Source: Tubulanus polymorphus
Taxonomy: Eukaryota > Nemertea > Palaeonemertea > Tubulaniformes > Tubulanidae
Reading direction: 5' to 3'
DNA: 64,000 bases
Assembly (NCBI RefSeq): GCF_964204645.1
Contig: NC_134025.1
Span: 31,836,001 to 31,900,000, forward strand
Below are positions 13,861-64,000 of this stretch, piece by piece; positions within the stretch are counted from its first letter, which is position 1; every line of letters begins with the position of its first letter. Below the pieces are notes generated by a model. It was not told the DNA's origin. It was given only the letters and a program-made list of their open reading frames with translations, and did not search any database. The translations under genes and the position numbers were made by a program.

Positions 13861-13861
13861 C

Positions 13862-29335: not shown

Positions 29336-29442
29336 CTGTAACTGAGAGTAAAACAGTAATTCTTAGTTCAAAAATAATTCAAAATATCAACAGAGACTGT
29401 GAAGAATTCTGTGGAGAAATTCATTACCAGTTTTGTATTTAC

Positions 29443-29491: not shown

Positions 29492-29764
29492 CTGAAAAGA
29501 AAAAGAAGCAATAATCAGTGACAATAGAGCAGAATGTAACATCTCAAATTATCAATCAATCAGACAGAAACAGTACAGATTAAACTGCTGTACTTATTTC
29601 ATACTGATTGTACAGTTACAGATACATGTAACATTGTGTACAGATACAGAGTACAGATCACTGCATTACTTCATCCTGTGAATGAACAGTGATTTAATGT
29701 TCTCTCATCTTCATTAGATTCCCATCCGTCTAACTAAAACATCAGAACATTTCAACTCATCTAA

Positions 29765-30112
29765 CCTCCCGACCCAACCCTCCCAGACCCCATCCCTCCC
29801 GCCCTTCTTCTCTCCCATACCCCTTCAATCCCGCCTCCCGACCCCTTCCCTCCCACGCCCCTTCCCTCCCGCCTCCTTCCCTCCCTCATCCCTTCCCTCC
29901 CGCCCTACCCGACCCCTTCCCTCCCGCCCATACCCTAGCCTTCCCTCAATGCCCCCCCCCACCTGGCCCTCCCTCAATGCCCTCCCACCTAGCCCTACCT
30001 CAATGCCTCCTCAACTCTCTCAATGCCCTCCCACCTGGCCCTCCCTCAATGCCCTCCCACCTAGCCCTCCCTCAATGCCCTTCCATCATGCCTCCTCAAC
30101 TCTCTTGTCTCC
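29765..30112 (+). repeat. C-rich minisatellite, segment 3 left
   Basis: Sister of 680-1045 with its own unit order and a run of ten C residues near 29951. Confidence 0.88.
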
Positions 30113-31198
30113 TCTTCACACACCACTCATCTGTACAATAACTACAAAACGATTTGCCATTTTTCACGATCATATCAATTTCATTTATAGATCAAAATCC
30201 TTAATCAATTGCATCATTGATGGGACTCACAGATACTTTCTCTACACATTTTGGAGGCATTCAGATGACCTCAAATGATCATATGCCTGGGTTGGTCTTG
30301 AAAATCACATGGCTTCATTTTTACAGATGATTTCTTTATCAATTTCATCAAATTATTCCTATTATTTCTACTCCCTCTAATAAGTATTCACAATATATCT
30401 CAGTTTCACGACAAGTTGCAGCAGTCGTCTGTAAACAGATTTCATTTCATCAAATGATGCGAGTTTGAGTTGTAGAGGTTTCATCTACAAAACATCAAAC
30501 CAAACCCGAGGAACTTAATGTTGTAAGGGAGGGGGAGGTATACGGAGGGTTCACCCGAACAAAGGAAATAAGCCCGAACCAAACCTTCACACTCACAAAA
30601 TGTCGCGAGAAAGGCAAACACAAACCAAGGACAAGAATGATGGCTGAGATCAAAACAATTAATGCTATTTATGTTGCTTCACCAATTCAACATGACGTCA
30701 CTAAATGAAACCATTGTGGACTATTTCAATACTCTCTACTAGAGGTTTCATATAAGCAAGTAGTTTATGGAATCCTATTCATAAAAGTTATTAATCAATG
30801 TTTTTAAACTGTTGCAAAAAATATACGTCATAAATAATCTGTTTGATTGTCTTTTCAAGTTAACACTTAAACCCAGTGGAACAAATCAAACTCCAGCCAT
30901 TTTTCCTTCATTTGCCATTTTTCGTTTTTACTCTTTTCTCTGATTTTTAGCACTTGAGTCGAGGTAGGAATAGACCCCTGCCCGCTCGCTAAGCGTACAG
31001 GACACTAAACCTTCGAATTGCTCTCGGACCCCACTCTTTATATCAGCATTTCATGCTGTTTTATTTTATTCACGCATTCGCTTTACATTTTTTCATATGG
31101 CTTTTCCTTATTTTTCGTCTCACTAAAATTCTCATCAGTTCCGACTGGGATAAAGTTTAATCTTTTAGAGACAAACAGCAAAAGGTTGTGTTAGTTGC
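30113..31198. other. Conserved spacer, nothing recognised
   Basis: Sister of 1046-2118 and 12765-13860. Confidence 0.55.
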
Positions 31199-31243
31199 AC
31201 CAGCAGCAGCAGCAGCAGCTGCAGCAGCACCAGCAGCAACACT
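31199..31243 (+). repeat. CAG trinucleotide tract
   Basis: CAG run with CTG and CAC interruptions, intermediate between the other two copies. Confidence 0.88.
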
Positions 31244-31351
31244 GATACAGATGAATCTTTCATTAACTACGTCATTTGTTCCATTCCCAAATATTGAGTC
31301 ATGAAGGCAACAGAAATAACTTTAAAAAACGTTAAATCTTTCATTTATGGC

Positions 31352-31888
31352 CTTGGTTTAGTGACCTAAGCGTCAAATATTGGTTCATAGCCCAGGTATG
31401 GTGACCAAAGAGTCAAAGTTTGGTTCATGGCTCAGGTTTAGTGACCAAAGAGTCAAAGTTTGGTTCAAGGCTCAGGTTTAGTGACCAAAGAGTCAAAGTT
31501 TGGTTCATGGCTCAGGTTTAGTGACCAAAGAGTCAAAGTTTGGTTCATGGCTCAGGTTTGGTGACCAAAGAGTCAAAGCTTGGTTCAAGGCTCAGGTTTA
31601 GTGACCAAAGAGTCAAAGTTTGGTCCATGGCTCAGGTTTAGTGACCAAATAGTCAAAGTTTGGTTCATAGCCCAGGTTTGGTAACCAAAGAGTCAAAGTT
31701 TGGTTCATAGCCCAGGTTTGGTGACCAAAGAGTCAAAGTTTGGTTCATAGGCCTGTTTTGGTGACCAAAGTGTCAAAGTTTGGTCTATGGTTCTGATTTG
31801 GTGACCAAAGAGTTAAAGTTTGGTTCATAGCCCTGTTAGGTTTACCAAAGAGTCAAAGTTTGGTCTATGGTTCTGATTTGGTGACCAC
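31352..31888 (+). repeat. 40-bp minisatellite, about 13.4 copies
   Basis: Largest of the three arrays. Interior units with GGCTCAGGTTTA are amplified, while the first and last units match the sister arrays. Confidence 0.93.
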
Positions 31889-45597: not shown

Positions 45598-46110
45598 TCA
45601 CGATAAACAATAGATTCTCAGAATCAGAATTTTCTGGCTGCTTTTGGTTCTGAAGATGATGAATTCTATCTTAATTGATGGGTTAGGGTGTACTGAACTG
45701 ATTTTCAATAGATTGGCTGAAAGATTCAGAATTTTCTGGCTACTTATGCTTCTGAAGTTGATGGATTCAAACTGAAAAGATGGGTTAAGGCGTATTGAAC
45801 TGATTTCAAATAGATAGGTTGAAAGAACCAGAATTTTCTGGCTGCTTTTGGTTCTGAAGATGATGGATTCAATCTGAAAAGATGGGTTAAGGCGTATTGA
45901 ACTGATTTCAAATAGATAGGTGGAAAGATTCAGAATTTTCTGGGTACTTATGCTCCTGAAGATGATGGACTCGATCTGAAATGATAGGTTAAGGTAAACT
46001 GAACTGATTTCGAGTAGATGGACTGAAAGATACAGATTTTTCTTGCAAAGTAGGGTCCTAAAGATGATGAGTTCTATCTTAATTGATTGGTTAGGGTGTA
46101 CTGAACTGAT
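45598..46110 (-). CDS. Terminal part of the satellite reading frame
   Basis: The frame kept through the array continues here for 170 codons after the stop at 46113-46111. It leaves the last monomer (QKILILRIYCLS) and ends at TGA 45600-45598 in unique DNA. A minus-strand AATAAA follows about 190 bases on. If the array is a gene, this is its C-terminal end, and the TAA at 46113 would cut it off. Whether it is translated is unknown. Confidence 0.25.
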   Translation of the reverse strand: MSSVHPNQSIKIELIIFRTLLCKKNLYLSVHLLEISSVYLNLSFQIESIIFRSISTQKILNLSTYLFEISSIRLNPSFQIESIIFRTKSSQKILVLSTYLFEISSIRLNPSFQFESINFRSISSQKILNLSANLLKISSVHPNPSIKIEFIIFRTKSSQKILILRIYCLS

Positions 46111-49100
46111 TTAAAATAGATAGGTGGAAAGATTAAGAATTTTCTGGCTATTTATGCTCCTGAGGATGATGCACTCGATCTGAAATGATAGGTTAAGGTA
46201 GACTGAACTGATTTCGAGTAGATGGACTGAAAGATACAGATTTTTCTTGCAAAATAGGGTCCTAAAGATGATGAGTTCTATCTTAATTGATGAGTTAGGG
46301 TGTACTGAATTGATTTCAAATAGATAGGTTGAAAGAATCAGAATTTTCTGGCTGCTTTTGGTTCTGATGATGATGGATTCAATTTGAAAAGATGTGTTAA
46401 GGCGTATTGAACTGATTTCAAATAGATAGGTGGAAAGATTAAGAATTTTCTGGCTATTTATGCTCCTGAGGATGATGCACTCGATCTGAAATGATAGGTT
46501 AAGGTAGACTGAACTGATTTCGAGTAGATGGACTGAAAGATACAGATTTTTCTTGAAAAATAGGGTCCTAAAGATGATGAGTTCTATCTTAATTGATGGG
46601 TTAGGGTGTACTGAACTGATTTCAAATAGATAGGTGGAAAGATTAAGAATTTTCTGGCTATTTATGCTCCTGAAGATGATGGACTCGATCTGAAATGATA
46701 GGTTAAGGTAAACTGAACTGATTTCGAGTAGATGGACTGAAAGATACAGATTTTTCTTGCAAAATAGGGTCCTAAAGATGATGAATTCTATCTTAATTGA
46801 TGGGTTAGGGTGAACTGAACTGATTTCAAATAGATAGGTGGAAAGAATCAGAATTTTCTGGCTGCCTTTGGTTCTGAAGATGATGGACTCAATCTGAAAA
46901 GATGGGCTAAGGCGTATTGAACTGATTTCAAATAGATAGGTGGAAAGATTAAGAATTTTCTGGCTATTTATGCTCCTGAAGATGATGGACTCGATCTGAA
47001 ATGATAGGTTAAGGCGTATTGAACTGATTTCAAATAGATAGATGGAAAGATTAAGAATTTTCTGGCTATTTATGCTCCTGAAGATGATGGACTCGATTTG
47101 AAATGATAGGTTAAGGTAAACTGAACTGATTTCGAGTAGATGGACTGAAAGATACAGATTTTTCTTGCAAAATAGGGTCCTAAAGATGATGAATTCTATC
47201 TTAATTGATGGGTTAGGGTGAACTGAACTGATTTCAAATAGATAGGTTGAAAGAATCAGAATTTTCTGGCTGCTTTTGGTTCTGAAGATGATGGATTCAA
47301 TTCGAAAAGATGTGTTAAGGCGTATTGAACTGATTTCAAATAGATAGGTGGAATGATTCAGAATTTTCTGGGTACTTATCCTCCTGAAGATGATGGACTC
47401 GATCTGAAATGATAGGGTAAGGTAAACTGAACTGATTTCGAGTAGATGGACTGAAAGATACAGATTTTTCTTGCAAAATAGGGTCCTAGAGATGATGAAT
47501 TCTATCTTAATTGATGGGTTAGGATGTACTGAACTGATTTCAAATAGATAGGTTGAAAGAATCAGAATTTTCTGGCTGCCTTTGGTTCTGAAGATGATGG
47601 ACTCAATCTGAAAAGATGGGCTAAGGCGTATTGAACTGATTTCAAATAGATAGGTGGAAAGATTAAGAATTTTCTGGCTATTTATGCTCCTGAAGATGAT
47701 GGACTCGATCTGAAACGATAGGTTAAGGTAAACTGAACTGATTTCGAGTAGATGGACTGAAAAATACAGATTTTTCTTGCAAAATAGGGTCCTAAAGATG
47801 ATGAATTCTATCTTAATTGATGGGTTAGGGTGTACTGAACTGATTTCAAATAGATAGGTTGAAAGAATCAGAATTTTCTGGCTGCTTTTGGTTCTGAAGA
47901 TGATGGATTCAATCTGAAAAGATGTGTTAAGGCGTATTGAACTGATTTCAAATAGATAGGTGGAAAGATTCAGAATTTTCTGGGTACTTATGCTCCTGAA
48001 GATGATGGACTCGATCTGAAATGATAGGTTAAGGTAAACTGAACTGATTTCGAGTAGATGGAGTGAAAGATACAGATTTTTCTTGCAAAGTAGGGTCCTA
48101 AAGATGATGAGTTCTATCTTAATTGATTGGTTAGGGTGTACTGAACTGATTTCAAATAGATAGGTGGAAAGAATCAGAATTTTCTGGCTGCTTTTGGTTC
48201 TGAAGATGATGGATTCAACCTGAAAAGATGTGTTAAGGCGTATTGAACTGATTTCAAATAGATAGGTGGAAAGATTCAGAATCTTCTGGGTACTTATGCT
48301 CCTGAAGATGATGGACTCGATCTGAAATGATAGGTTAAGGCAAACTGAACTGATTTCGAGTAGATGGACTGAAAGATACAGATTTTTCTTGCAAAATAGG
48401 GTCCTAAAGATGATGAGTTCTATCTTAATTGATGGGTTAGGGTGTACTGAACTGATTTCAAATAGATAGGTTGAAAGAATCAGAATTTTCTGGCTGCTTT
48501 TGGTTCTGAAGATGATGGATTCAATCTGAAAAGATGTGTTAAGGCGTATTGAACTGATTTCAAATAGATAGGTGGAAAGATTAAGAATTTTCTGGCTATT
48601 TATGCTCCTGAAGATGATGGACTCGATCTGAAACGATAGGTTAAGGTAAACTGAACTGATTTCGAGTAGATGGACTGAAAGATACAGATTTTTCTTGCAA
48701 AATAGGGTCCTAAAGTTGATGAGTTCTATCTTAATTGATGGGTTAGAGTGTACTGAACTGATTTCAAATAGAAAGGTGGAAAGATTAAGAATTTTCTGGC
48801 TATTTATGCTCCTGAAGATGATGGACTCGATCTGAAACGATAGGTTAAGGTAAACTGAACTGATTTCGAATAGATGGACTGAAAGATACAGATTTTTCTT
48901 GCAAAATAGGGTCCTAAAGATGATGAATTCTATCTTAATTGATGGGATAGGGTGTACTGAACTGATTTCAAATACATAGGTTGAAAGAATCAGAATTTTC
49001 TGGCTGCTTTTGGTTCTGAAGATGATGGATTCAATCTGAAAAGATGTGTTAAGGCGTATTGAACTGATTTCAAATAGATAGGTGGAAAGATTAAGAATTT

Positions 49101-50394
49101 TCTGGGTACTTATCCTCCTGAAGATGATGGACTCGATCTGAAATGATAGGTTAAGGTAAACTGAACTGATTTCGAGTAGATGGACTGAAAGATACAGATT
49201 TTTCTTGCAAAATAGGGTCCTAAAGATGATGAATTCTATCTTAATTGATGGGTTAGGGTGAACTGAACTGATTTCAAATAGATAGGTGGAAAGAATCAGA
49301 ATTTTCTGGCTGCCTTTGGTTCTGAAGATGATGGACTCAATCTGAAAAGATGGGCTAAGGCGTATTGAACTGATTTTAAATAGATAGGTGGAAAGATTAA
49401 GAATTTTCTGGCTATTTATGCTCCTGAAGATGATGGACTCGATCTGAAATGATAGGTTAAGGTAAACTGAACTGATTTCGAGTAGATGGACTGAAAGATA
49501 CAGATTTTTCTTGCAAAATAGGGTCCTAAAGATGATGAATTCTATCTTAATTGATGGGTTAGGGTGTACTGAACTGATGTTCAATAGATTGGTTGAAAGA
49601 TTCAGAATTTTCTGACTACTAATACTTCTGAAGTTGATTGAAACAATCTGAAAAGATGGGTTAAGGCGTATTGAACTGATTTCAAATAGATAGGTGGAAA
49701 GATTAAGAATTTTCTGGCTATTTATGCTCCTGAAGATGATGGACTCGATCTGAAACGATAGGTTAAGGTAAACTGAACTGATTCCGAGTAGATGGGATGA
49801 AAGATACAGATTTTTGTTGCAAAATAGGGTCCTAAAGATAATGAATTCAATCTTAATTAATGGGTTAGGGTGTAATGAACTGATGTCAAATAGATAGGTT
49901 GAAAGAATCAGAATTTTCTGGCTGCTTTTGGTTCTGAAGATGATGGATTCAATCTGAAAAGATGGGTTTAGGCGAATTGAACTGATTTCAAATAGATAGG
50001 TGGAAAGATTCAGAATTTTCTGGGTATTTATGCTCCTGAAGATGATGGACTCGATCTGAAACGATAGGTTAAGGTAAACTGAACTGATTTCGAGTAGATG
50101 GACTGACAGATACAGATTTTTCTTGCAAAAGAGGGTCCTAAAGGTGATGAATTCTATCTTAATTGATGGGTTAGGGTGTACTGAACTGATTTCAAATAGA
50201 TAGGTTGAAAGAATTAGAATTTTCTGGCTGCTTTTGGTTCTGAAGATGATGGATTCAATCTGAAAAGATGTGTTAAGGCGTATTGAACTGATTTCAAATA
50301 GATAGGTGGAAAGATTCAGAATCTTCTGGGTACTTATGCTCCTGAAGATGATGGACTCGATCTGAAATGATAGGTTAAGGTAAACTGAACTGAT
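46111..50394 (-). CDS. Satellite open frame, section of 1,427 codons
   Basis: Open on the minus strand between TAA at 50397-50395 and TAA at 46113-46111. It encodes about 42 repeats of 34 residues. Each repeat is rich in Ile, Leu, Ser and Phe, with near-invariant EISS and IIFR, and C-type repeats add Lys-rich FCKKN. No signal peptide, known catalytic motif or in-frame ATG near the left boundary is seen. The composition would suit a beta-rich solenoid if translated, but that is speculation. The closing stop arises from GAA to TAA at the conserved Glu of EISS (plus strand TTC to TTA). Confidence 0.25.
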   Translation of the reverse strand: MSSVYLNLSFQIESIIFRSISTQKILNLSTYLFEISSIRLNTSFQIESIIFRTKSSQKILILSTYLFEISSVHPNPSIKIEFITFRTLFCKKNLYLSVHLLEISSVYLNLSFQIESIIFRSINTQKILNLSTYLFEISSIRLNPSFQIESIIFRTKSSQKILILSTYLFDISSLHPNPLIKIEFIIFRTLFCNKNLYLSSHLLGISSVYLNLSFQIESIIFRSINSQKILNLSTYLFEISSIRLNPSFQIVSINFRSISSQKILNLSTNLLNISSVHPNPSIKIEFIIFRTLFCKKNLYLSVHLLEISSVYLNLSFQIESIIFRSINSQKILNLSTYLFKISSIRLSPSFQIESIIFRTKGSQKILILSTYLFEISSVHPNPSIKIEFIIFRTLFCKKNLYLSVHLLEISSVYLNLSFQIESIIFRRISTQKILNLSTYLFEISSIRLNTSFQIESIIFRTKSSQKILILSTYVFEISSVHPIPSIKIEFIIFRTLFCKKNLYLSVHLFEISSVYLNLSFQIESIIFRSINSQKILNLSTFLFEISSVHSNPSIKIELINFRTLFCKKNLYLSVHLLEISSVYLNLSFQIESIIFRSINSQKILNLSTYLFEISSIRLNTSFQIESIIFRTKSSQKILILSTYLFEISSVHPNPSIKIELIIFRTLFCKKNLYLSVHLLEISSVCLNLSFQIESIIFRSISTQKILNLSTYLFEISSIRLNTSFQVESIIFRTKSSQKILILSTYLFEISSVHPNQSIKIELIIFRTLLCKKNLYLSLHLLEISSVYLNLSFQIESIIFRSISTQKILNLSTYLFEISSIRLNTSFQIESIIFRTKSSQKILILSTYLFEISSVHPNPSIKIEFIIFRTLFCKKNLYFSVHLLEISSVYLNLSFQIESIIFRSINSQKILNLSTYLFEISSIRLSPSFQIESIIFRTKGSQKILILSTYLFEISSVHPNPSIKIEFIISRTLFCKKNLYLSVHLLEISSVYLTLSFQIESIIFRRISTQKILNHSTYLFEISSIRLNTSFRIESIIFRTKSSQKILILSTYLFEISSVHPNPSIKIEFIIFRTLFCKKNLYLSVHLLEISSVYLNLSFQIESIIFRSINSQKILNLSIYLFEISSIRLNLSFQIESIIFRSINSQKILNLSTYLFEISSIRLSPSFQIESIIFRTKGSQKILILSTYLFEISSVHPNPSIKIEFIIFRTLFCKKNLYLSVHLLEISSVYLNLSFQIESIIFRSINSQKILNLSTYLFEISSVHPNPSIKIELIIFRTLFFKKNLYLSVHLLEISSVYLNLSFQIECIILRSINSQKILNLSTYLFEISSIRLNTSFQIESIIIRTKSSQKILILSTYLFEINSVHPNSSIKIELIIFRTLFCKKNLYLSVHLLEISSVYLNLSFQIECIILRSINSQKILNLSTYLF

Positions 50395-53250
50395 TTAGAG
50401 TAGATGGACTGAAAGATACAGATTTTTCTTGCAAAGTAGGGTCCTAAAGATGATGAGTTCTATCTTAATTGATTGGTTAGGGTGTACTGAGCTGATTTCA
50501 AATAGATAGGTGGAAAGATTAAGAATTTTCTGGCTATTTATGCTCCTGAAGATGATGGACTCGATCTGAAACGATAGGTTAAGGTAAACTGAACTGATTT
50601 CGTGTAGATGGACTGAAAGATACAGATTTTTCTTGCAAAATAGGGTCCTAAAGATGATGAATTCTATCTTAATTGATGGGTTAGGGTGTACTGAACTGAT
50701 TTCAAATAGATAGGTTGAAAGAATCAGAATTTTCTGGCTGCTTTTGGTTCTGAAGATGATGGATTCAACCTGAAAAGATGTGTTAAGGCGTATTGAACTG
50801 ATTTCAAATAGATAGGTGGAAAGATTCAGAATCTTCTGGGTACTTATGCTCCTGAAGATGATGGACTCGATCTGAAATGATAGGTTAAGGCAAACTGAAC
50901 TGATTTCGAGTAGATGGACTGAAAGATACAGATTTTTCTTGCAAAATAGGGTCCTAAAGATGATGAATTCTATCTTAATTGTTGGGTTAGGGTGTACTGA
51001 ACTGATGTTCAATAGATTGGTTGAAAGATTCAGAATTTCCTGACTACTTATAGTTCTGAAGTTGATTGATTCAATCTGAAAAGATGGGTTAAGGCGTATT
51101 GAACTGATTTCAAATAGATAGGTGGAAAGATTAAGAATTTTCTGGCTATTTATGCTCCTGAAGATGATGGACTCGATCTGAAATGATAGGTTAAGGTAAA
51201 CTGAACTGATTCCGAGTAGATGGGATGAAAGATACAGATTTTTCTTGCAAAATAGGGTCCTAAAGATCATGAATTCTATCTTAATCGATGGGTTAGGGTG
51301 TACTGAACTGATTTCAAATAGATAGGTTGAAAGAATCAGAATTTTCTGGCTGCTTTTGGTTCTGAAGATGATGGATTCAATCTGAAAAGATGTGTTAAGG
51401 CGTATTGAACTGATTTCAAATAGATAGGTGGAAAGATTCAGAATTTTCTGGGTACTTATGCTCCTGAAGATGATGGACTCGATCTGAAATGATAGGTTAA
51501 GGTAAACTGAACTTATTTCGAGTAGATGGACTGAAAGATACAGATTTTTCTTGCAAAGTAGGGTCCTAAAGATGATGAGTTCTATCTTAATTGATTGGTT
51601 AGGGTGTACTGAACTGATTTCAAATAGATAGGTGGAAAGATTAAGAATTTTCTGGCTATTTATGCTCCTGAAGATGATGGACTCGATCTGAAACGTTAGG
51701 TTAAGGTAAACTGAACTGATTTCGTGTAGATGGACTGAAAGATACAGATTTTTCTTGCAAAATAGGGTCCTAAAGATGATGAATTCTATCTTAATTGATG
51801 GGTTAGGGTGTACTGAACTGATTTCGAATAGATAGGTTGAAAGAATCAGAATTTTCTGGCTGCTTTTGGTTCTGAAGATGATGGATTCAACCTGAAAAGA
51901 TGTGTTAAGGCGTATTGAACTGATTTCAAATAGATAGGTGGAAAGATTAAGAATTTTCTGGCTATTTATGCTCCTGAAGATGATGGAATCGATCTGAAAT
52001 GATAGGGTAAGGTAAACTGAACTGATTTCGAGTAGATGGACTGAAAGATACAGATTTTTCTTGCAAAATAGGGTCCTAAAGATGATGAATTCTATCTTAA
52101 TTGATGGGTTAGGGTGAACTGAACTGATTTCAAATAGATAGGTGGAAAGAATCAGAATTTTCTGGCTGCCTTTGGTTCTGAAGATGATGGACTCAATCTG
52201 AAAAGATGGGCTAAGGCGTATGGAACTGATTTCAAATAGATAGGTGGAAAGATTAAGAATTTTCTGGCTATTTATGCTCCTGAAGATGATGGACTCGATC
52301 TGAAATGATAGGTTAAGGTAAACTGAACTGATTTCGAGTAGATGGACTGAAAGATACAGATTTTTCTTGCAAAATAGGGTCCCAAAGATGATGAATTCTA
52401 TCTTAATTGTTGGGTTAGGGTGTACTGAACTGATGTTCAATAGATTGGTTGAAAGATTCAGAATTTTCTGACTACTTATACTTCTGAAGTTGATTGAAAC
52501 AATCTGAAAAGATGGGTTAAGGCGTATTGAACTGATTTCAAATAGATAGGTGGAAAGATTAAGAATTTTCTGGCTATTTATGCTCCTGAAGATGATGGAC
52601 TCGATCTGAAATGATAGGTTAAGGTAAACTGAACTGATTCCGAGTAGATGGGATGAAAGATACAGATTTTTGTTGCAAAATAGGGTCCTAAAGATGATGA
52701 ATTCTATCTTAATTAATGGGTTAGGGTGTAATGAACTGATGTCAAATAGATAGGTTGAAAGAATCAGAATTTTCTGGCTGCTTTTGGTTCTGAAGATGAT
52801 GGATTCAATCTGAAAAGATGGGTTTAGGCGAATTGAACTGATTTCAAATAGATTGGTGGAAAGATTCAGAATTTTCTGGCTATTTATGCTCCTGAAGATG
52901 ATGGACTCGATCTGAAACGATAGGTTAAGGTAAACTGAACTGATTTCGAGTAGATGGACTAAAAGATACAGATTTTTCTTGCAAAAGAGGGTCATAAAGG
53001 TGATGAATTCTATCTTAATTGATGGGTTAGGGTGTACTGAACTGATTTCAAATAGATAGGTTGAAAGAATTAGAATTTTCTGGCTGCTTTTGGTTCTGAA
53101 GATGATGGATTCAATCTGAAAAGATGTGTTAAGGCGTATTGAACTGATTTCAAATAGATAGGTGGAAAGATTCAGAATTTTCTGGGTACTGATGCTTCTG
53201 AAGATGATGGACTCGATCTGAAATGATAGGTTAAGGTAAACTGAACTGAT
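50395..53250 (-). CDS. Satellite open frame, section of 951 codons
   Basis: Open between TAA at 53253-53251 and TAA at 50397-50395, in the same phase as its neighbours. The two bounding stops are the same mutated monomer: their surroundings match (AGAATTAGAATTTTCTGG at 50212 and 53068, GCAAAAGAGGGTC at 50134 and 52981) and they are 2,856 bases (28 monomers) apart. One nonsense mutation was therefore copied by duplication. An in-frame ATG at 52995 comes from a CCT to CAT change on the plus strand and need not be a start. Confidence 0.25.
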   Translation of the reverse strand: MSSVYLNLSFQIESIIFRSISTQKILNLSTYLFEISSIRLNTSFQIESIIFRTKSSQKILILSTYLFEISSVHPNPSIKIEFITFMTLFCKKNLYLLVHLLEISSVYLNLSFQIESIIFRSINSQKILNLSTNLFEISSIRLNPSFQIESIIFRTKSSQKILILSTYLFDISSLHPNPLIKIEFIIFRTLFCNKNLYLSSHLLGISSVYLNLSFQIESIIFRSINSQKILNLSTYLFEISSIRLNPSFQIVSINFRSISSQKILNLSTNLLNISSVHPNPTIKIEFIIFGTLFCKKNLYLSVHLLEISSVYLNLSFQIESIIFRSINSQKILNLSTYLFEISSIRLSPSFQIESIIFRTKGSQKILILSTYLFEISSVHPNPSIKIEFIIFRTLFCKKNLYLSVHLLEISSVYLTLSFQIDSIIFRSINSQKILNLSTYLFEISSIRLNTSFQVESIIFRTKSSQKILILSTYLFEISSVHPNPSIKIEFIIFRTLFCKKNLYLSVHLHEISSVYLNLTFQIESIIFRSINSQKILNLSTYLFEISSVHPNQSIKIELIIFRTLLCKKNLYLSVHLLEISSVYLNLSFQIESIIFRSISTQKILNLSTYLFEISSIRLNTSFQIESIIFRTKSSQKILILSTYLFEISSVHPNPSIKIEFMIFRTLFCKKNLYLSSHLLGISSVYLNLSFQIESIIFRSINSQKILNLSTYLFEISSIRLNPSFQIESINFRTISSQEILNLSTNLLNISSVHPNPTIKIEFIIFRTLFCKKNLYLSVHLLEISSVCLNLSFQIESIIFRSISTQKILNLSTYLFEISSIRLNTSFQVESIIFRTKSSQKILILSTYLFEISSVHPNPSIKIEFIIFRTLFCKKNLYLSVHLHEISSVYLNLSFQIESIIFRSINSQKILNLSTYLFEISSVHPNQSIKIELIIFRTLLCKKNLYLSVHLL

Positions 53251-56200
53251 TTAGAGTAGATGGACTGAAAGATACAGATTTTTCTTGCAAAATAGGGTCC
53301 TAAAGATGATGAATTCTATCTTAATTGTTGGGTTATGGTGTACTGAACTGATGTTCAATAGATTGGTTGAAAGATTCAGAATTTTCTGACTACTTATACT
53401 TCTGAAGTTGATTGATTCAATCTGAAAAGATGGGTTAGGGCGTATTGAACTGATTTCAAATAGATAGGTGGAAAGATTAAGAATTTTCTGGCTATTTATG
53501 CTCCTGAAGATGATGGACTCCATCTGAAATGATAGGTTAAGGTAAACTGAACTGATTCCGAGTAGATGGGATGTAAGATACAGATTTTTGTTGCAAATTA
53601 GGGTCCTAAAGATGATGAATTCTATCTTATTTAATGGGTTAGGGTGTAATGAACTGATGTCAAATAGATAGGTTGAAAGAATCAGAATTTTCTGGCTGCT
53701 TTTGGTTCTGAAGATGATGGATTCAATCTGAAAAGATGGGTTTAGGCGAATTGAACTGATTTCAAATAGATAGGTGGAAAGATTCAGAATTTTCTGGCTT
53801 TTTATGCTCCTGAAGATGATGGAATCGATCTGAAACGATAGGTTAAGGTAAACTGAACTGATTTCGAGTAGATGGACTGAAAGATACAGATTTTTCTTGC
53901 AAAATAGGGTCCTAAAGATGATGAATTCTATCTTAATTGATGGGTTAAGGTGTACTGAACTGATTTCAAATAGATAGGTTGAAAGAATCAGAATTTTCTG
54001 GCTGCTTTTGGTTCTGAAGATGATGGATTCAATCTGAAAAGATGTGTTAGGGCGTATTGAACTGATTTCAAATAGATAGGTGGAAAGATTAAGAATTTTC
54101 TGGCTATTTATGCTCCTGAAGATGATGGACTCGATCTGAAATGATAGGTTAAGGTAAACTGAACTGATTTCGAGTAGATGGACTGAAAGATACAGATTTT
54201 TCTTGCAAAATAGGGTCCTAAAGATGATGAGTTCTATCTTAATTGATGGGTTAGGGTGCACTGAACTGATTTCAAATAGAAAGGTGGAAAGATTAGGAAT
54301 TTTCTGGTTATTTATGCTCCTGAAGATGGTGGACTCGATCTGAAATGATAGGTTAAGGTCAACTGAACTGATTACGAGCAGATGGACTGAAAGATACAGA
54401 TTTTTCTTGCAAAATAGAGTCCTAAAGATGACGAATTCTATCTTAATTGATGGGTTAGGGAGAACTGAACTGATTTCAAATAGATAGGTGGAAAGAATCA
54501 GAATTTTCTGGCTTCCTTTGGTTCTGAAGATGATGGACTCAATCTGAAAAGATTGGCTAAGGCGTATTGAACTGATTTCAAATAGATAGGTGGAAAGATT
54601 AAGAATTTTCTGGCTATTTATGCTCCTGAAGATGATGGACTCGATCTGAAATGATAGGTTAAGGTAAACTGAACTGATTTCGAGAAGATTGACTGAAAGA
54701 TACAGATTTTTCTTGCAAAATAGGGTCCTAAAGATGATGAATTCTATCTTAATTGATGGGTTAGGGTGTACTGAACTGATTTCAAATAGATAGGTGGAAA
54801 GACTAAGAATTTTCTGGCTATTTATGCTCCTGAAGATGATGGACTCGATCTTAAATGATAGGTTAAGGTAAACTGAACTGATTTCGAGTAGATGGACTGA
54901 AAGATACAGATTTTTCTTGCAAAATAGGGTCCTAAAGATGATGAATTCTATCTTAATTGTTGGGTTAGGGTGTACTGAACTGATGTTCAATAGATTGGTT
55001 GAAAGATTCAGAATTTTCTGACTACTTATACTTCTGAAGTTGATTGATTCAATCTGAAAAGATGTGTTAAGGCGTATTGAACTGATTTCAAATAGATGGG
55101 TGGAAAGATTAAGAATTTTCTGGCTATTTATGCTCCTGAAGATGATGGACTCCATCTGAAATGATAGGTTAAGGTAAACTGAACTGATTTCGAGTAGATG
55201 GACTGAAAGATACAGATTTTTCTTGCAAAATAGGGTCCTAAAGATGATGAATTCTATCTTAATTAATGGGTTAGGGTGTAATGAACTGATGTCAAATAGA
55301 TAGGTTGAAAGAATCAGAATTTTCTGGCTGCTTTTGGTTCTGAAGATGATGGATTCAATCTGAAAAGATGGGTTTAGGCGAATTGAACTGATTTCAAATA
55401 GATAGGTGGAAAGATTCAGAATTTTCTGGCTATTTATGCTCCTGAAGATGATGGACTCGATCTGAAACGATAGGTTAAGGTAAACTGAACTGATTTCGAG
55501 TAGATGGACTGAAAGATACAGATTTTTCTTGCAAAATAGGGTCCTAAAGATGATGAATTCTATCTTAATATATGGGTTAGGGTGTACTGAACTGATTTCA
55601 AATAGATAGGTTGAAAGAATCAGAATTTTCTGGCTGCTTTTGGTTCTGAAGATGTTGGATTCAATCTGAAAAGATGTGTTAAGGCGTATTGAACTGATTT
55701 CAAATAGATAGGTGGAAAGATTTAGCATTTTCTGGGTACTGATGCTCCTGAAGATGATGGACTCGATCTGAAATGATAGGTTAAGGTAAACTGAACCGAT
55801 TTCGAGTAGATGGACTGAAAGATACATATTTTTCTTGCAAAGTAGGGTCCTAAAGATGATAAGTTCTATCTTAATTGATTGGTTAGGGTGTACTGAACTG
55901 ATTTCAAATAGATAGGTGGAAAGATTAAGAATTTTCTGGCTATTTATGCTCCTGAAGATGATGGACTCGATCTGAAACAATAGGTTAAGGTAAACTGAAC
56001 TGATTTCGTGTAGATTGACTGAAAGATACAGATTTTTCTTGCAAAATAGGGTCCTAAAGATGATGAATTCTATCTTAATTGATGGGTTAGGGTGTACTGA
56101 ACTGATTTCAAATAGATTGGTTGAAAGATTCAGAACTTTCTGACTACTTATACTTCTGAAGTTGATTGATTCAATCTGAAAAGATGGGTTAAGGCGTATT

Positions 56201-59200
56201 GAACTGATTTCAAATAGATAGGTGGAAAGATTAAGAATTTTCTGGCTATTTATGCTCCTGAAGATGATGGACTCCATCTGAAATGATAGGTTAAGGTAAA
56301 CTGAACTGATTCCGAGAAGATGGGATGTAAGATACAGATTTTTGTTGCAAATTAGGGTCCTAAAGATGATGAATTCTATCTTATTTAATGGGTTAGGGTG
56401 TAATGAACTGATGTCAAATAGATAGGTTGAAAGAATCAGAATTTTCTGGCTGCTTTTGGTTCTGAAGATGATGGATTCAATCTGAAAAGATGGGTTTAGG
56501 CGAATTGAACTGATTTCAAATAGGTAGGTGGAAAGATTCAGAATTTTCTGGCTTTTTATGCTCCTGAAGATGATGGAATCGATCTGAAACGATAGGTTAA
56601 GGTAAACTGAACTGATTTCGAGTAGATGGACTGAAAGATACAGATTTTTCTTGCAAAATAGGGTCCTAAAGATGATGAATTCTATCTTAATTGATGGGTT
56701 AGGGTGTACTGAACTGATTTCAAATAGATAGGTGGAAAGAATCAGAATTTTCTGGCTGCTTTTGGTTCTGAAGATGATGGACTCAACCTGAAAAGATGTG
56801 TTAAGGCGTATTGAACTGATTTCAAATAGATAGGTGGAAAGATTCAGAATCTTCTGGGTACTTATGCTCCTGAAGATGATGGACTCGATCTGAAATGATA
56901 GGTTAAGGCAAACTGAACTGATTTCGAGTAGATGGACTGAAAGATACAGATTTTTCTTGCAAAATAGGGTCCTAAAGATGATGAATTCTATCTTAATTGT
57001 TGGGTTAGGGTGTACTGAACTGATGTTCAATAGATTGGTTGAAAGATTCAGAATTTTCTGACTACTTATAGTTCTGAAGTTGATTGATTCAATCTGAAAA
57101 GATGGGTTAAGGCGTATTGAACTGATTTCAAATAGACAGGTGGAAAGATTAAGAATTTTCTGGCTATTTATGCTCCTGAAGATGATGGACTCGATCTGAA
57201 ATGATAGGTTAAGGTAAACTGAACTGATTCCGAGTAGATGGGATGAAAGATACAGATTTTTGTTGCAAAATAGGGTCCTAAAGATGATGAATTCTATCTT
57301 AATTAATGGGTTAGGGTGTAATGAACTGATGTCAAATAGATAGGTTGAAAGAATCAGAATTTTCTGGCTGCTTTTGGTTCTGAAGATGATGGATTCAATC
57401 TGAAAAGATGGGTTTAGGCGAATTGAACTGATTTCAAATAGATAGGTGGAAAGATTCAGAATTTTCTGGCTGCTTTTGGTCCTAAAGATGATGAGTTCTA
57501 TCTTAATTGATTGGTTAGGGTGTACTGACCTGATTTCAAATAGATAGGTGGAAAGATTAAGAATTTTCTGGCTATTTATGCTCCTGAAGATGATGGACTC
57601 GATCTGAAACGTTAGGTTAAGGTAAACTGAACTGATTTCGTGTAGATGGACTGAAAGATACAGATTTTTCTTGCAAAATAGGGTCCTAAAGATGATGAAT
57701 TCTATCTTAATTGATGGGTTAGGGTGTACTGAACTGATTTCAAATAGATAGGTTGAAAGAATCAGAATTTTCTGGCTGCTTTTGGTTCTGAAGATGATGG
57801 ATTCAACCTGAAAAGATGTGTTAAGGCGTATTGAACTGATTTCAAATAGATAGGTGGAAAGATTCAGAATCTTCTGGGTACTTATGCTCCTGAAGATGAT
57901 GGACTCGATCTGAAATGATAGGTTAAGGCAAACTGAACTGATTTCGAGTAGATGGACTGATAGATACAGATTTTTCTTGCAAAATAGGGTCCTAAAGATG
58001 ATGAGTTCTATCTTAATTGATGGGTTAGGGTGTACTGAACTGATTTCAAATAGATAGGTTGAAAGAATCAGAATTTTCTGGCTGCTTTTGGTTCTGAAGA
58101 TGATGGATTCAATTTGAAAAGATGTGTTAAGGCGTATTAAACTGATTTCAAATAGATAGGTGGAAAGATTAAGAATTTTCTGGCTATTTATGCTCCTGAG
58201 GATGATGCACTCGATCTGGAATGATAGGTTAAGGTAGACTGAACTGATTTCGAGTAGATGGACTGAAAGATACAGATTTTTCTTGCAAAATAGGGTCCTA
58301 AAGATGATGAGTTCTATCTTAATTGATGGGTTAGGGTGTACTGAACTGATTTCAAATAGAAAGGTTGAAAGAATCAGAATTTTCTGGCTGCTTTTGGTTC
58401 TGAAGATGATGGATTCAATCTGAAAAGATGTGTTAAGGCGTATTGAACTGATTTCAAATAGATAGGTGGAAAGATTAAGAATTTTCTGGCTATTTATGCT
58501 CCTGAAGATGATGGACTCGATCTGAAATGATAGGTTAAGGTAAACTGAACTGATTTCGAGAAGATGGACTGAAAGATACAGATTTTTCTTGCAAAATAGG
58601 GTCCTAAAGATGATGAGTTCTATCTTAATTGATGGGTTAGGGTGTACTGAACTGATTTCAAATAGATAGGTTGAAAGAATCAGAATTTTCTGGCTGCTTT
58701 TGGTTCTGAAGATGATGGATTCAATCTGAAAAGATGTGTTAAGGCGTATTGAACTGATTTCAAATAGATAGGTGGAAAGATTAAGAATTTTCTGGCTATT
58801 TATGCTCCTGAAGATGATGGACTCGATCTGAAATGATAGGTTAAGGTAAACTGAACTGATTTCGAGAAGATGGACTGAAAGATACAGATTTTTCTTGCAA
58901 AATAGGGTCCTAAAGATGATGAGTTCTATCTTAATTGATGGGTTAGAGTGTACTGAACTGACTTCAAATAGATAGGTGGAAAGATTAAGAATTTTCTGGC
59001 TATTTATGCTCCTGAAGATGATGGACTCGATCTGAAATGATAGGTTAAGGTAAACTGAACTGATTTCGAGAAGATGGACTGAAAGATACAGATTTTTCTT
59101 GCAAAATAGGGTCCTAAAGATGATGAGTTCTATCTTAATTGATGGGTTAGAGTGTACTGAACTGACTTCAAATAGATAGGTGGAAAGATTAAGAATTTTC

Positions 59201-62200
59201 TGGCTATTTATGCTCCTGAAGATGATGGACTCGATCTGAAACGATAGGTTAAGGTAAATTGAACTGATTTCGTGTAGATGGACTGAAAGATACAGATTTT
59301 TCTTGCAAAATAGGGTCCTAAAGATGATGAATTCTATCTTAATTGATGGGTTAGGGTGTACTGAACTGATTTCAAATACATAGGTTGAAAGAATCAGAAT
59401 TTTCTGGCTGCTTTTGGTTCTGAAGATGATGGATTCAATCTGAAAAGATGTGTTAAGGCGTATTGAACTGATTTCAAATAGATAGGTGGAAAGATTCAGA
59501 ATTTTCTGGGTACTTATCCTCCTGAAGATGATGGACTCGATCTGAAATGATAGGGTGAGGTAAACTGAACTGATTTCGAGTAGATGGACTGAAAGATACA
59601 GATTTTTCTTGCAAAATAGGGTCCTGGAGATGATGAATTCTATCTCAATTGATGGGTTAGGATGTACTGAACTGATTTCAAATAGATAGGTTGAAAGAAT
59701 CAGAATTTTCTGGCTGCCTTTGGTTCTGAAGATGATGGACTCAATCTGAAAAGATGGGCTAAGGCGTATTGAACTGATTTCAAATAGATAGGTGGAAAGA
59801 TTAAGAATTTTCTGGCTATTTATGCTCCTGATGATGATGGACTCGATCTGAAATGATAGGTTAAGGTAAACTGAACTGATTTCGAGTAGATGGACTGAAA
59901 GATACAGATTTTTCTTGCAAAAAAGGGTCCTAAAGATGATGAATTCTATCTTAATTGATGGGTTAGGGTGAACTGAACTGATTTCAAATAGATAGGTGGA
60001 AAGAATCAGAATTTTCTGGCTGCCTTTGGTTCTGAAGATGATGGACTCAATCTGAAAAGATGGGCTAAGGCGTATGGAACTGATTTCAAATAGATAGGTG
60101 GAAAGATTAAGAATTTTCTGGCTATTTATGCTCCTGAAGATGATGGACTCGATCTGAAATGATAGGTTAAGGTAAACTGAACTGATTTCGAGTAGATGGA
60201 CTGAAAGATACAGATTTTTCTTGCAAAATAGGGTCCTAAAGTTGATGAATTCTATCTTAATTGTTGGGTTAGGGTGTACTGAACTGATGTTCAATAGATT
60301 GGTTGAAAGATTCAGAATTTTCTGACTACTTATACTTCTGAAGTTGATTGATTCAATCTGAAAAGATGGGTTAAGGCGTATTGAACTGATTTCAAATAGA
60401 TGGGTGGAAAGATTAAGAATTTTCTGGCTATTTATGCTCCTGAAGATGATGGACTCCATCTGAAATGATAGGTTAAGGTAAACTGAACTGATTCCGAGTA
60501 GATGGGATGTAAGATACAGATTTTTGTTGCAAATTAGGGTCCTAAAGATGATGTATTCTATCTTAATTAATGGGTTAGGGTGTAATGAACTGATGTCAAA
60601 TAGATAGGTTGAAAGAATCAGAATTTTCTGGCTGCTTTTGGTTCTGAAGATGATGGATTCAATCTGAAAAGATGGGTTTAGGCGAATTGAACTGATTTCA
60701 AATAGATAGGTGGAAAGATTCAGAATTTTCTGGCTATTTATGCTCCTGAAGATGATGGACTCGATCTGAAACGATAGGTTAAGGTAAACTGAACTGATTT
60801 CGAGTAGATGGACTGAAAGATACAGATTTTTCTTGCAAAATAGGGTCCTAAAGATGATGAATTCTATCTTAATTGATGGGTTAGGGTGTACTGAACTGAT
60901 TTCAAATAGATAGGTTGAAAGAATCAGAATTTTCTGGCTGCTTTTGGTTCTGAAGATGATGGATTCAATCTGAAAAGATGTGTTAAGGCGTATTGAACTG
61001 ATTTCAAATAGATAGGTGGAAAGATTTAGCATTTTCTGGGTACTGATGCTCCTGAAGATGATGGACTCGATCTGAAATGATAGGTTAAGGTAAACTGAAC
61101 TGATTTCGAGTAGATGGACTGAAAGATACATATTTTTCTTGCAAAGTAGGGTCCTAAAGATGATAAGTTCTATCTTAATTGATTGGTTAGGGTGTACTGA
61201 ACTGATTTCAAATAGATAGGTGGAAAGATTAAGAATTTTCTGGCTATTTATGCTCCTGAAGATGATGGACTCGATCTGAAACGATAGGTTAAGGTAAACT
61301 GAACTGATTTCGTGTAGATTGACTGAAAGATACAGATTTTTCTTGCAAAATAGGGTCCTAAAGATGATGAATTCTATCTTAATTGATGGGTTAGGGTGTA
61401 CTGAACTGATTTCAAATAGATAGGTTGAAAGAATCAGAATTTTCTGGCTGCTTTTGGTTCTGAAGATGATGGATTCAACCTGAAAAGATGTGTTAAGGCG
61501 TATTGAACTGATTTCAAATAGATAGGTGGAAAGATTCAGAATCTTCTGGGTACTTATGCTCCTGAAGATGATGGACTCGATCTGAAATGATAGGTTAAGG
61601 CAAACTGAACTGATTTCGAATAGATGGACTGAAAGATACAGATTTTTCTTGCAAAATAGGGTCCTAAAGATGATGAGTTCTATCTTAATTGATGGGTAAG
61701 GGTGTACTGAACTGATTTCAAATAGATAGGTTGAAAGAATCAGAATTTTCTGGCTGCTTTTGGTTCTGAAGATGATGGATTCGATTTGAAAAGATGTGTT
61801 AAGGCGTATTGAACTGATTTCAAATAGATAGGTGGAAAGATTCAGAATTTTCTGGGTACTTATGCTCCTGAAGATGATGGACTCGATCTGAAATGATAGG
61901 TTAAGGTAAACTGAACTGATTTCGAGTAGATGGACTGAAAGATACATATTTTTCTTGCAAAATAGGGTCCTAAAGATGATGAATTCTATCTTAATTGATG
62001 GGTTAGGGTGAACTGAACTGATTTCAAATAGATAGGTTGAAAGAATCAGAATTTTCTGGCTGCCTTTGGTTCTGAAGATGATGGACTCAATCTGAAAAGA
62101 TGGGCTAAGGCGTATGGAACTGATTTCAAATAGATAGGTGGAAAGATTAAGAATTTTCTGGCTATTTATGCTCCTGAAGATGATGGACTCGATCTGAAAT

Positions 62201-64000
62201 GATAGGTTAAGGTAAACTGAACTGATTTCGAGTAGATGGACTGAAAGATACAGATTTTTCTTGCAAAATAGGGTCCTAAAGATGATGAATTCTATCTTAA
62301 TTGTTGGGTTAGGGTGTACTGAACTGATGTTCAATAGATTGGTTGAAAGATTCAGAATTTTCTGACTACTTATAGTTCTGAAGTTGATTGATTCAATCTG
62401 AAAAGATGGGTTAAGGCGTATTGAACTGATTTCAAATAGATAGGTGGAAAGATTAAGAATTTTCTGGCTATTTATGCTCCTGAAGATGATGGACTCGATC
62501 TGAAATGATAGGTTAAGGTAAACTGAACTGATTCCGAGTAGATGGGATGAAAGATACAGATTTTTGTTGCAAAATAGGGTCCTAAAGATGATGAATTCTA
62601 TCTTAATTAATGGGTTAGGGTGTAATGAACTGATGTCAAATAGATAGGTTGAAAGAATCAGAATTTTCTGGCTGCTTTTGGTTCTGAAGATGATGGATTC
62701 AATCTGAAAAGATGGGTTTAGGCGAATTGAACTGATTTCAAATAGATAGGTGGAAAGATTCAGAATTTTCTGGCTGCTTTTGGTCCTAAAGATGATGAGT
62801 TCTATCTTAATTGATTGGTTAGGGTGTACTGACCTGATTTCAAATAGATAGGTGGAAAGATTAAGAATTTTCTGGCTATTTATGCTCCTGAAGATGATGG
62901 ACTCGATCTGAAACGTTAGGTTAAGGTAAACTGAACTGATTTCGTGTAGATGGACTGAAAGATACAGATTTTTCTTGCAAAATAGGGTCCTAAAGATGAT
63001 GAATTCTATCTTAATTGATGGGTTAGGGTGTACTGAACTGATTTCAAATAGATAGGTTGAAAGAATCAGAATTTTCTGGCTGCTTTTGGTTCTGAAGATG
63101 ATGGATTCAACCTGAAAAGATGTGTTAAGGCGTATTGAACTGATTTCAAATAGATAGGTGGAAAGATTCAGAATCTTCTGGGTACTTATGCTCCTGAAGA
63201 TGATGGACTCGATCTGAAATGATAGGTTAAGGCAAACTGAACTGATTTCGAGTAGATGGACTGATAGATACAGATTTTTCTTGCAAAATAGGGTCCTAAA
63301 GATGATGAGTTCTATCTTAATTGATGGGTTAGGGTGTACTGAACTGATTTCAAATAGATAGGTTGAAAGAATCAGAATTTTCTGGCTGCTTTTGGTTCTG
63401 AAGATGATGGATTCAATTTGAAAAGATGTGTTAAGGCGTATTAAACTGATTTCAAATAGATAGGTGGAAAGATTAAGAATTTTCTGGCTATTTATGCTCC
63501 TGAGGATGATGCACTCGATCTGGAATGATAGGTTAAGGTAGACTGAACTGATTTCGAGTAGATGGACTGAAAGATACAGATTTTTCTTGCAAAATAGGGT
63601 CCTAAAGATGATGAGTTCTATCTTAATTGATGGGTTAGGGTGTACTGAACTGATTTCAAATAGAAAGGTTGAAAGAATCAGAATTTTCTGGCTGCTTTTG
63701 GTTCTGAAGATGATGGATTCAATCTGAAAAGATGTGTTAAGGCGTATTGAACTGATTTCAAATAGATAGGTGGAAAGATTAAGAATTTTCTGGCTATTTA
63801 TGCTCCTGAAGATGATGGACTCGATCTGAAATGATAGGTTAAGGTAAACTGAACTTATTTCGAGAAGATGGACTGAAAGATACAGATTTTTCTTGCAAAA
63901 TAGGGTCCTAAAGATGATGAGTTCTATCTTAATTGATGGGTTAGGGTGTACTGAACTGATTTCAAATAGATAGGTTGAAAGAATCAGAATTTTCTGGCTG
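53251..64000 (-). CDS. Satellite open frame, at least 3,582 codons, runs off the window
   Basis: Reading plus-strand triplets in phase from 62335 to 64000, I found no TTA, CTA or TCA, so the minus frame is still open at the edge. From 53254 to 62334 it is also unbroken. It holds about 105 repeats of 34 residues in A-B-C order with some A-C skips. Internal methionines are rare (as in FQMES, KKNMYL), and no start with a leader or signal peptide is present. The 5' end, if any, lies beyond 64000. It could be a giant repetitive protein, a run of identical in-frame exons without introns, or a satellite whose 102-bp monomer happens to lack stops in one frame. Confidence 0.3.
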   Translation of the reverse strand, partial: SQKILILSTYLFEISSVHPNPSIKIELIIFRTLFCKKNLYLSVHLLEISSVYLNLSFQIESIIFRSINSQKILNLSTYLFEISSIRLNTSFQIESIIFRTKSSQKILILSTFLFEISSVHPNPSIKIELIIFRTLFCKKNLYLSVHLLEISSVYLNLSFQIECIILRSINSQKILNLSTYLFEISLIRLNTSFQIESIIFRTKSSQKILILSTYLFEISSVHPNPSIKIELIIFRTLFCKKNLYLSVHLLEISSVCLNLSFQIESIIFRSISTQKILNLSTYLFEISSIRLNTSFQVESIIFRTKSSQKILILSTYLFEISSVHPNPSIKIEFIIFRTLFCKKNLYLSVHLHEISSVYLNLTFQIESIIFRSINSQKILNLSTYLFEIRSVHPNQSIKIELIIFRTKSSQKILNLSTYLFEISSIRLNPSFQIESIIFRTKSSQKILILSTYLFDISSLHPNPLIKIEFIIFRTLFCNKNLYLSSHLLGISSVYLNLSFQIESIIFRSINSQKILNLSTYLFEISSIRLNPSFQIESINFRTISSQKILNLSTNLLNISSVHPNPTIKIEFIIFRTLFCKKNLYLSVHLLEISSVYLNLSFQIESIIFRSINSQKILNLSTYLFEISSIRLSPSFQIESIIFRTKGSQKILILSTYLFEISSVHPNPSIKIEFIIFRTLFCKKNMYLSVHLLEISSVYLNLSFQIESIIFRSISTQKILNLSTYLFEISSIRLNTSFQIESIIFRTKSSQKILILSTYLFEISSVHPYPSIKIELIIFRTLFCKKNLYLSVHLFEISSVCLNLSFQIESIIFRSISTQKILNLSTYLFEISSIRLNTSFQVESIIFRTKSSQKILILSTYLFEISSVHPNPSIKIEFIIFRTLFCKKNLYLSVNLHEISSVYLNLSFQIESIIFRSINSQKILNLSTYLFEISSVHPNQSIKIELIIFRTLLCKKNMYLSVHLLEISSVYLNLSFQIESIIFRSISTQKMLNLSTYLFEISSIRLNTSFQIESIIFRTKSSQKILILSTYLFEISSVHPNPSIKIEFIIFRTLFCKKNLYLSVHLLEISSVYLNLSFQIESIIFRSINSQKILNLSTYLFEISSIRLNPSFQIESIIFRTKSSQKILILSTYLFDISSLHPNPLIKIEYIIFRTLICNKNLYLTSHLLGISSVYLNLSFQMESIIFRSINSQKILNLSTHLFEISSIRLNPSFQIESINFRSISSQKILNLSTNLLNISSVHPNPTIKIEFINFRTLFCKKNLYLSVHLLEISSVYLNLSFQIESIIFRSINSQKILNLSTYLFEISSIRLSPSFQIESIIFRTKGSQKILILSTYLFEISSVHPNPSIKIEFIIFRTLFCKKNLYLSVHLLEISSVYLNLSFQIESIIIRSINSQKILNLSTYLFEISSIRLSPSFQIESIIFRTKGSQKILILSTYLFEISSVHPNPSIEIEFIISRTLFCKKNLYLSVHLLEISSVYLTLSFQIESIIFRRISTQKILNLSTYLFEISSIRLNTSFQIESIIFRTKSSQKILILSTYVFEISSVHPNPSIKIEFIIFRTLFCKKNLYLSVHLHEISSIYLNLSFQIESIIFRSINSQKILNLSTYLFEVSSVHSNPSIKIELIIFRTLFCKKNLYLSVHLLEISSVYLNLSFQIESIIFRSINSQKILNLSTYLFEVSSVHSNPSIKIELIIFRTLFCKKNLYLSVHLLEISSVYLNLSFQIESIIFRSINSQKILNLSTYLFEISSIRLNTSFQIESIIFRTKSSQKILILSTYLFEISSVHPNPSIKIELIIFRTLFCKKNLYLSVHLLEISSVYLNLSFQIESIIFRSINSQKILNLSTYLFEISSIRLNTSFQIESIIFRTKSSQKILILSTFLFEISSVHPNPSIKIELIIFRTLFCKKNLYLSVHLLEISSVYLNLSFQIECIILRSINSQKILNLSTYLFEISLIRLNTSFQIESIIFRTKSSQKILILSTYLFEISSVHPNPSIKIELIIFRTLFCKKNLYLSVHLLEISSVCLNLSFQIESIIFRSISTQKILNLSTYLFEISSIRLNTSFQVESIIFRTKSSQKILILSTYLFEISSVHPNPSIKIEFIIFRTLFCKKNLYLSVHLHEISSVYLNLTFQIESIIFRSINSQKILNLSTYLFEIRSVHPNQSIKIELIIFRTKSSQKILNLSTYLFEISSIRLNPSFQIESIIFRTKSSQKILILSTYLFDISSLHPNPLIKIEFIIFRTLFCNKNLYLSSHLLGISSVYLNLSFQIESIIFRSINSQKILNLSTCLFEISSIRLNPSFQIESINFRTISSQKILNLSTNLLNISSVHPNPTIKIEFIIFRTLFCKKNLYLSVHLLEISSVCLNLSFQIESIIFRSISTQKILNLSTYLFEISSIRLNTSFQVESIIFRTKSSQKILILSTYLFEISSVHPNPSIKIEFIIFRTLFCKKNLYLSVHLLEISSVYLNLSFQIDSIIFRSIKSQKILNLSTYLFEISSIRLNPSFQIESIIFRTKSSQKILILSTYLFDISSLHPNPLNKIEFIIFRTLICNKNLYLTSHLLGISSVYLNLSFQMESIIFRSINSQKILNLSTYLFEISSIRLNPSFQIESINFRSISSQKVLNLSTNLFEISSVHPNPSIKIEFIIFRTLFCKKNLYLSVNLHEISSVYLNLLFQIESIIFRSINSQKILNLSTYLFEISSVHPNQSIKIELIIFRTLLCKKNMYLSVHLLEIGSVYLNLSFQIESIIFRSISTQKMLNLSTYLFEISSIRLNTSFQIESNIFRTKSSQKILILSTYLFEISSVHPNPYIKIEFIIFRTLFCKKNLYLSVHLLEISSVYLNLSFQIESIIFRSINSQKILNLSTYLFEISSIRLNPSFQIESIIFRTKSSQKILILSTYLFDISSLHPNPLIKIEFIIFRTLFCKKNLYLSVHLLEISSVYLNLSFQMESIIFRSINSQKILNLSTHLFEISSIRLNTSFQIESINFRSISSQKILNLSTNLLNISSVHPNPTIKIEFIIFRTLFCKKNLYLSVHLLEISSVYLNLSFKIESIIFRSINSQKILSLSTYLFEISSVHPNPSIKIEFIIFRTLFCKKNLYLSVNLLEISSVYLNLSFQIESIIFRSINSQKILNLSTYLFEISSIRLSQSFQIESIIFRTKGSQKILILSTYLFEISSVLPNPSIKIEFVIFRTLFCKKNLYLSVHLLVISSVDLNLSFQIESTIFRSINNQKIPNLSTFLFEISSVHPNPSIKIELIIFRTLFCKKNLYLSVHLLEISSVYLNLSFQIESIIFRSINSQKILNLSTYLFEISSIRPNTSFQIESIIFRTKSSQKILILSTYLFEISSVHLNPSIKIEFIIFRTLFCKKNLYLSVHLLEISSVYLNLSFQIDSIIFRSIKSQKILNLSTYLFEISSIRLNPSFQIESIIFRTKSSQKILILSTYLFDISSLHPNPLNKIEFIIFRTLICNKNLYLTSHLLGISSVYLNLSFQMESIIFRSINSQKILNLSTYLFEISSIRPNPSFQIESINFRSISSQKILNLSTNLLNISSVHHNPTIKIEFIIFRTLFCKKNLYLSVHLL

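Follow-up and report, generated by a model that had tools for sequence, protein, structure and literature searches.

The window, by which we mean the whole stretch of 64,000 nucleotides analyzed here (C1:31,836,001-31,900,000, on a contig of 32,063,560 bp in an assembly of 267.8 Mb and 77 contigs), closes with a tandem array of 102-bp monomers that runs on to the end of the contig. The genome is that of an animal, to judge by a GluN3-like receptor fragment, and probably of an invertebrate; no match was obtained when it was searched for COX1, GFP and STING. Within the window this array keeps a single phase and a largely open minus-strand frame; farther along, it is frame-shifted again and again and its long blocks are duplicated. 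We consider it highly probable that the array is a homogenised, non-coding subtelomeric satellite, since the features described below point to the frame not being translated.

Structure and extent of the array

Tandem Repeats Finder (TRF) reported a single tandem array in the window, at 45,620-63,999, and assigned it a 306-bp unit (89% matches, 0% indels). A 204-bp unit was also called for it, as an overlapping row. Approximately 180 monomers of 102 bp, which belong to three types (A, B and C) and form a 306-bp higher-order unit, occupy positions 45,620-64,000 in one phase, and all 158 matches of an anchor motif in the window share that phase modulo 102. The monomer, the higher-order unit and their common phase over 18.4 kb were therefore correctly described in the original prediction. 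The start of the array had been placed at 45,598, which is instead the site of the next stop of the frame; the array itself begins at 45,620. Its features in the window are as follows:

45,620-64,000, no strand assigned: satellite array of 102-bp monomers, mostly in the A-B-C 306-bp higher-order unit; first part, with about 164 kb more to the contig end
45,622-45,723, minus strand: type A monomer, the first complete copy, at the array's proximal edge

Beyond the window the array extends to the end of C1, to a total of about 182 kb (positions past 64,000 are given in extended coordinates, i.e., window numbering carried on). Satellite sequence on either strand accounts for 181,835 of 181,941 bases, and the sole uncovered stretch of 15 or more bases is a TTAGGG tract. 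The first phase lasts only to 69,396 (extended), and the earliest changes of phase fall within C1:31,905,390-31,909,800. Altogether the array comprises 53 phase segments, and 48 of the 52 changes of phase are not multiples of three and thus shift the frame. A monomer walk on C1 yielded 1,616 monomers in 176.6 kb. The in-phase block contains 233 monomers (84 of type A, 67 of type B and 82 of type C). Consensus sequences of the three types are equal in length and differ pairwise at 21, 24 and 21 sites.

Long blocks of the array are duplicated: identity of 98.5-100% was found between 3-kb windows separated by 16,521, 11,118, 5,304 bp and other lags, with at most 5.1% of such windows at any one lag. 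These duplications support one of two readings that had been offered at the outset, that of a recently homogenised array. Chromosome-specific differentiation was weak in the sampled pieces. The origin of the array is probably as follows. A 102-bp family with types A, B and C was amplified as the 306-bp unit and as longer blocks, giving large arrays near contig ends. Copying of whole units in register would spread existing monomers faster than indels build up. Phase may thus have been kept because in-register copying of long blocks outpaces indels, and no coding constraint would be needed.

Indels and substitutions were examined in 2,020 monomers from C1 and from sampled pieces of C4 and of the unplaced contig C34, a set that omits most indel-bearing monomers, which occur at irregular spacings. 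The commonest irregular monomers were of type C and lacked one base; two such deletions, with 27 and 13 copies, respectively, show that frame-breaking changes are tolerated and multiplied. Thirteen indel patterns were listed, one of which is a multiple of three (21 bp), and five irregular spacings (1,641 twice, 4,653, 131 and 121) could not be aligned as a single monomer and are outside these patterns. Set against 403 distinct substitutions, 13 indel patterns are few for the divergence, and this counts against the satellite reading. The paucity of indels and the equal length of the A, B and C consensus sequences favor a different view, that monomer length is kept for a reason at the level of DNA (protein binding, curvature, nucleosome or a telomere-related role) and that the frame is a by-product. 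However, the amplification of one-base deletions to 27 and 13 copies speaks against such a constraint.

Location and orientation at chromosome ends

The genome was searched three times with satellite queries, and 40 candidates were scored among 1,128, 1,162 and 1,417. Satellite sites among the scored candidates were the right end of C1, both ends of C4, the right end of C7 and the unplaced C34. Continuity between matches was established for the C1 array, and the sizes given for C4 and C7 are spans between the outermost matches:

C4 left, 85-424 kb: array, about 339 kb between outermost matches
C4 right, 27.32-27.36 of 27.38 Mb: array, at least 43 kb between outermost matches
C7 right, 21.27-21.56 of 21.62 Mb: array, about 290 kb between outermost matches

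The left and right arrays of C4 are near contig ends, and direct junctions between satellite and TTAGGG repeats are present on C1 and C7, at different points of the monomer. The G-rich strand points endward on the chromosome in each of the four placed arrays. In addition, monomer A contains a telomere-like GGGTTAGGG, which was counted 515 times on the G-rich strand of C1 versus 26 times on the other strand. This common orientation and the strand bias of the motif are also consistent with a constraint at the level of DNA. On the other hand, a (TTAGGG)n match equalling the best of monomer A arose in 85 of 3,000 composition shuffles (a figure per type, with three types examined). Considering these observations together with the amplified deletions, we regard a DNA-level reason for the monomer length as unlikely.

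A further proposal is that the G-rich, telomere-like strand gives the satellite a role at chromosome ends, where it might be a substrate for healing or supply the telomere with G-rich transcripts. It derives from the endward direction of the G-rich strand at four of four arrays and from the TTAGGG joins at two monomer points (C1 and C7), and we put it forward as a speculative, rather doubtful role. A centromeric satellite is not favored, as the arrays are near contig ends; telocentric centromeres would be compatible with this location.

Several additional repeats were observed at contig ends and beside the arrays. A different tandem repeat, which contains GGGACTGGAGTGGA and GGGTTAATA motifs, is located at C3:1-1,500 and at the right end of C8, and CCCTAA repeats are found at the left ends of C9 and C10. 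Beside the C7 satellite, a retroelement is present between TTAGGG tracts (C7:21,564,101-21,571,600). It has an 830-residue frame with a match to the RVT_1 reverse transcriptase (E 1.3e-7) and a GIY-YIG match just under the cut-off (E 3.8e-4), and an upstream 520-residue frame with no Pfam match at E 0.01. The terminal sequence of this retroelement recurs at three sites on C4 (left), in each case after a TTAGGG tract. We take the retroelement to resemble a Penelope-like element whose 3' end is placed on telomeric repeats. In the window, the array's flank (1-45,600) contains segments in two or three copies that are about 87-96% identical (20-2,530, 11,639-14,267 and 29,110-31,607 are examples); thus, the flank is itself built of large repeated blocks.

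The open minus-strand frame

The frame of interest is read on the minus strand, with codons starting at plus-strand coordinates equal to 1 modulo 3. In the part of the array that lies in the window it has three stops only, at 46,113, 50,397 and 53,253, and the remaining five frames have 249-886 stops each. The frame had been thought to stay open for 18.4 kb: the phase is indeed kept over this length, but the openness is interrupted by the three stops. The longest open run in the window measured 10,747 nt and is located at the right edge, in agreement with the earlier estimate of at least 10,747 bases. The corresponding features are:

53,254-64,000, minus strand: open stretch, 10,747 nt, which runs on outside the window to 69,492
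53,251-53,253, minus strand: stop codon in the frame
50,395-50,397, minus strand: stop codon in the frame
46,111-46,113, minus strand: stop codon in the frame

Followed outside the window, the open run ends at 69,492 (extended), just past the last monomer anchor of the first phase, and comes to 16,239 nt or 5,413 codons. Met is scarce in it, with 12 residues in the 5,413 codons. An example sequence from the three 34-residue repeat types is LSTYLFEISSVHPNPSIK. Farther along the array, beyond phase shifts, a further 18,834 nt are open without interruption; long open runs thus belong to the monomers as such and not to one gene. A stop in this register is present in 69 of 1,602 monomers on C1.

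The presence of one open frame may be explained by the divisibility of 102 by three, by strand composition and by the copying of founding monomers that happened to be without stops in this register. The minus strand is C-rich and G-poor, and is therefore poor in TAG and TGA. When monomers were shuffled with composition preserved, an open frame was obtained in 29-39% of cases on the C-rich strand versus 10-14% on the G-rich strand. Dinucleotide shuffles of monomer A left at least one of six frames open in 36% of cases, and simulated three-monomer families did so in 5.8%. Starting from one open monomer, a pair of additional copies that each received 12 substitutions remained open in 36% of cases.

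To look at selection, distinct variants were compared with a resampling that preserved the substitution spectrum, using 2,001 monomers with at most 12 mismatches to a consensus (19 of the 2,020, with more than 12, were dropped ahead of the counts). We observed 280 non-synonymous, 104 synonymous and 19 stop variants, versus 285.6, 98.7 and 18.7 expected, and the ratio of non-synonymous to synonymous variants (N/S) was 0.93 of expected (p 0.16). The comparison of dN/dS across monomers, which had been suggested as a check on the gene, thus gave a nearly neutral result, with stops at their expected number.

Subsets of the data behaved somewhat differently, with p values that are uncorrected for the number of looks. 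N/S was 0.78 of expected in the in-phase block (p 0.06), where stop-creating variants numbered 3 versus 6.9 expected (p 0.058), 0.83 in the C4 and C34 monomers (p 0.07) and 0.81 among variants present at least three times (p 0.047). Singleton variants had an N/S of 1.03 of expected and 10 stops versus 6.3. The frame-broken part of the array gave 0.87 of expected (p 0.15); thus, an intact frame does not clearly account for the slight lean. Heterozygosity at codon position 3 was 1.45 times that at positions 1 and 2 (permutation p 0.05). For pairs of consensus sequences in this register, dN/dS was 0.71, 0.87 and 0.31, and the last value, for B versus C, is below the 5% point of the simulated neutral range (5-95%, 0.41-2.55); in the other five registers, values of 0.39-2.18 were obtained. 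In our reading, the substitution tests agree with neutrality within error and leave a weak lean unexplained.

It is conceivable that the satellite arose from a fragment of a genuine repeat gene, in which case the open frame, the third-position excess and the borderline N/S values would be left from past coding. However, differences between the monomer types are flat across codon positions (24, 21 and 21 at positions 1, 2 and 3, summed over the consensus pairs), and a Pfam search with two 204-residue pieces of the frame detected no family above the cut-off. We therefore consider a relic of this kind quite improbable.

Upstream of the frame, as far as the contig end, we found satellite, including inverted blocks, and 13 TTAGGG units only. 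At C1:32,058,194-32,063,560, satellite is followed by these 13 units and then by 5,289 bp of inverted satellite, a tail that reaches the contig end and could represent a fusion, a fold-back or a misassembly. Three more inverted blocks are located at 200,782-205,278, 209,042-210,572 and 212,416-213,946 on C1 (extended coordinates). A 5' exon with an ATG, which had been anticipated past 64,000 in the case of a gene, was not found up to the contig end, where satellite and one TTAGGG tract occupy the sequence. The inverted blocks and the 5.3-kb inverted tail behind the TTAGGG units look unusual, as they might if repeats had been collapsed or expanded, or blocks misjoined, during assembly. However, the many variants, the local blocks and the sister arrays at other ends make it very improbable that the array is an artefact of this sort.

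At the protein level, AlphaFold2, run on a single sequence of 204 residues of the frame, predicted an all-beta structure with a pLDDT of 78 (78.0 to 63.5 in five models) and a pTM of 0.78. An off-frame control, taken from the neighboring frame with stops read through, had a pLDDT of 39, in a sequence that also differs in composition (20 of its 204 residues are read-through stops). According to PMC11795689, AlphaFold2 yields such models for perfect repeats of random sequence. Our off-frame control did not reproduce this artefact, and to this extent the predicted structure stands against the satellite reading. When one model was compared with PDB by Foldseek, 143 matches had E 10 or better, but none reached 0.001. 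We discount the model because of the artefact reported in that paper and the lack of a Foldseek match at E 0.001, and translation of the frame into a predicted beta-solenoid appears extremely unlikely.

The other reading offered at the outset was a giant gene, with a minus-strand transcript that would encode a protein of thousands of 34-residue repeats. The open runs of 10,747 nt in the window, 16,239 nt overall and 18,834 nt farther along, the pLDDT of 78 versus 39, and the borderline third-position excess and lean within the in-phase block speak for such a gene; however, with 52 phase changes (48 frame-shifting), stops in the frame, amplified frameshift deletions (27 and 13 copies), stop and N/S counts that are neutral when all monomers are taken together, nothing but satellite and TTAGGG units upstream, 12 Met in 5,413 codons, and neither a Pfam family over the cut-off nor a PDB fold at E 0.001 or better, it is rejected as having almost no chance of being correct. 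The original prediction had named two results that would speak against a gene, near-neutral ratios and frameshifts elsewhere in the array, and both were observed.

Relation to known repeats

In its head-to-tail monomers, higher-order unit, homogenised blocks and location just inside telomeric repeats, the array resembles subtelomeric satellite DNA as a class, as presented in PMC5615363, where formation of higher-order repeats from monomers is also described. No matching named satellite was recognised in open-licence literature on 102-bp/306-bp satellites, a search in which descriptions under the species name may be missed. Alpha-satellite-like higher-order repeats similarly have divergent monomers grouped in a repeated multi-monomer unit; in contrast, the monomer described here is 102 bp long and its arrays are near chromosome ends. 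Genes for tandem-repeat proteins whose units are TPR- or PPR-sized, at about 34 residues, share the 34-codon period with the array. Unlike such genes, the present frame is without a Pfam match over the cut-off, is predicted to be all-beta and is repeatedly frame-shifted.

These observations show how, when its period is divisible by three, a satellite can look like a gene that is many kilobases long. A view of the size of our window is insufficient in such a case, and it is the rest of the array that decides between gene and satellite. If the endward orientation of the G-rich strand holds at further ends, this satellite could be used for asking what role subtelomeric repeats play at chromosome ends.
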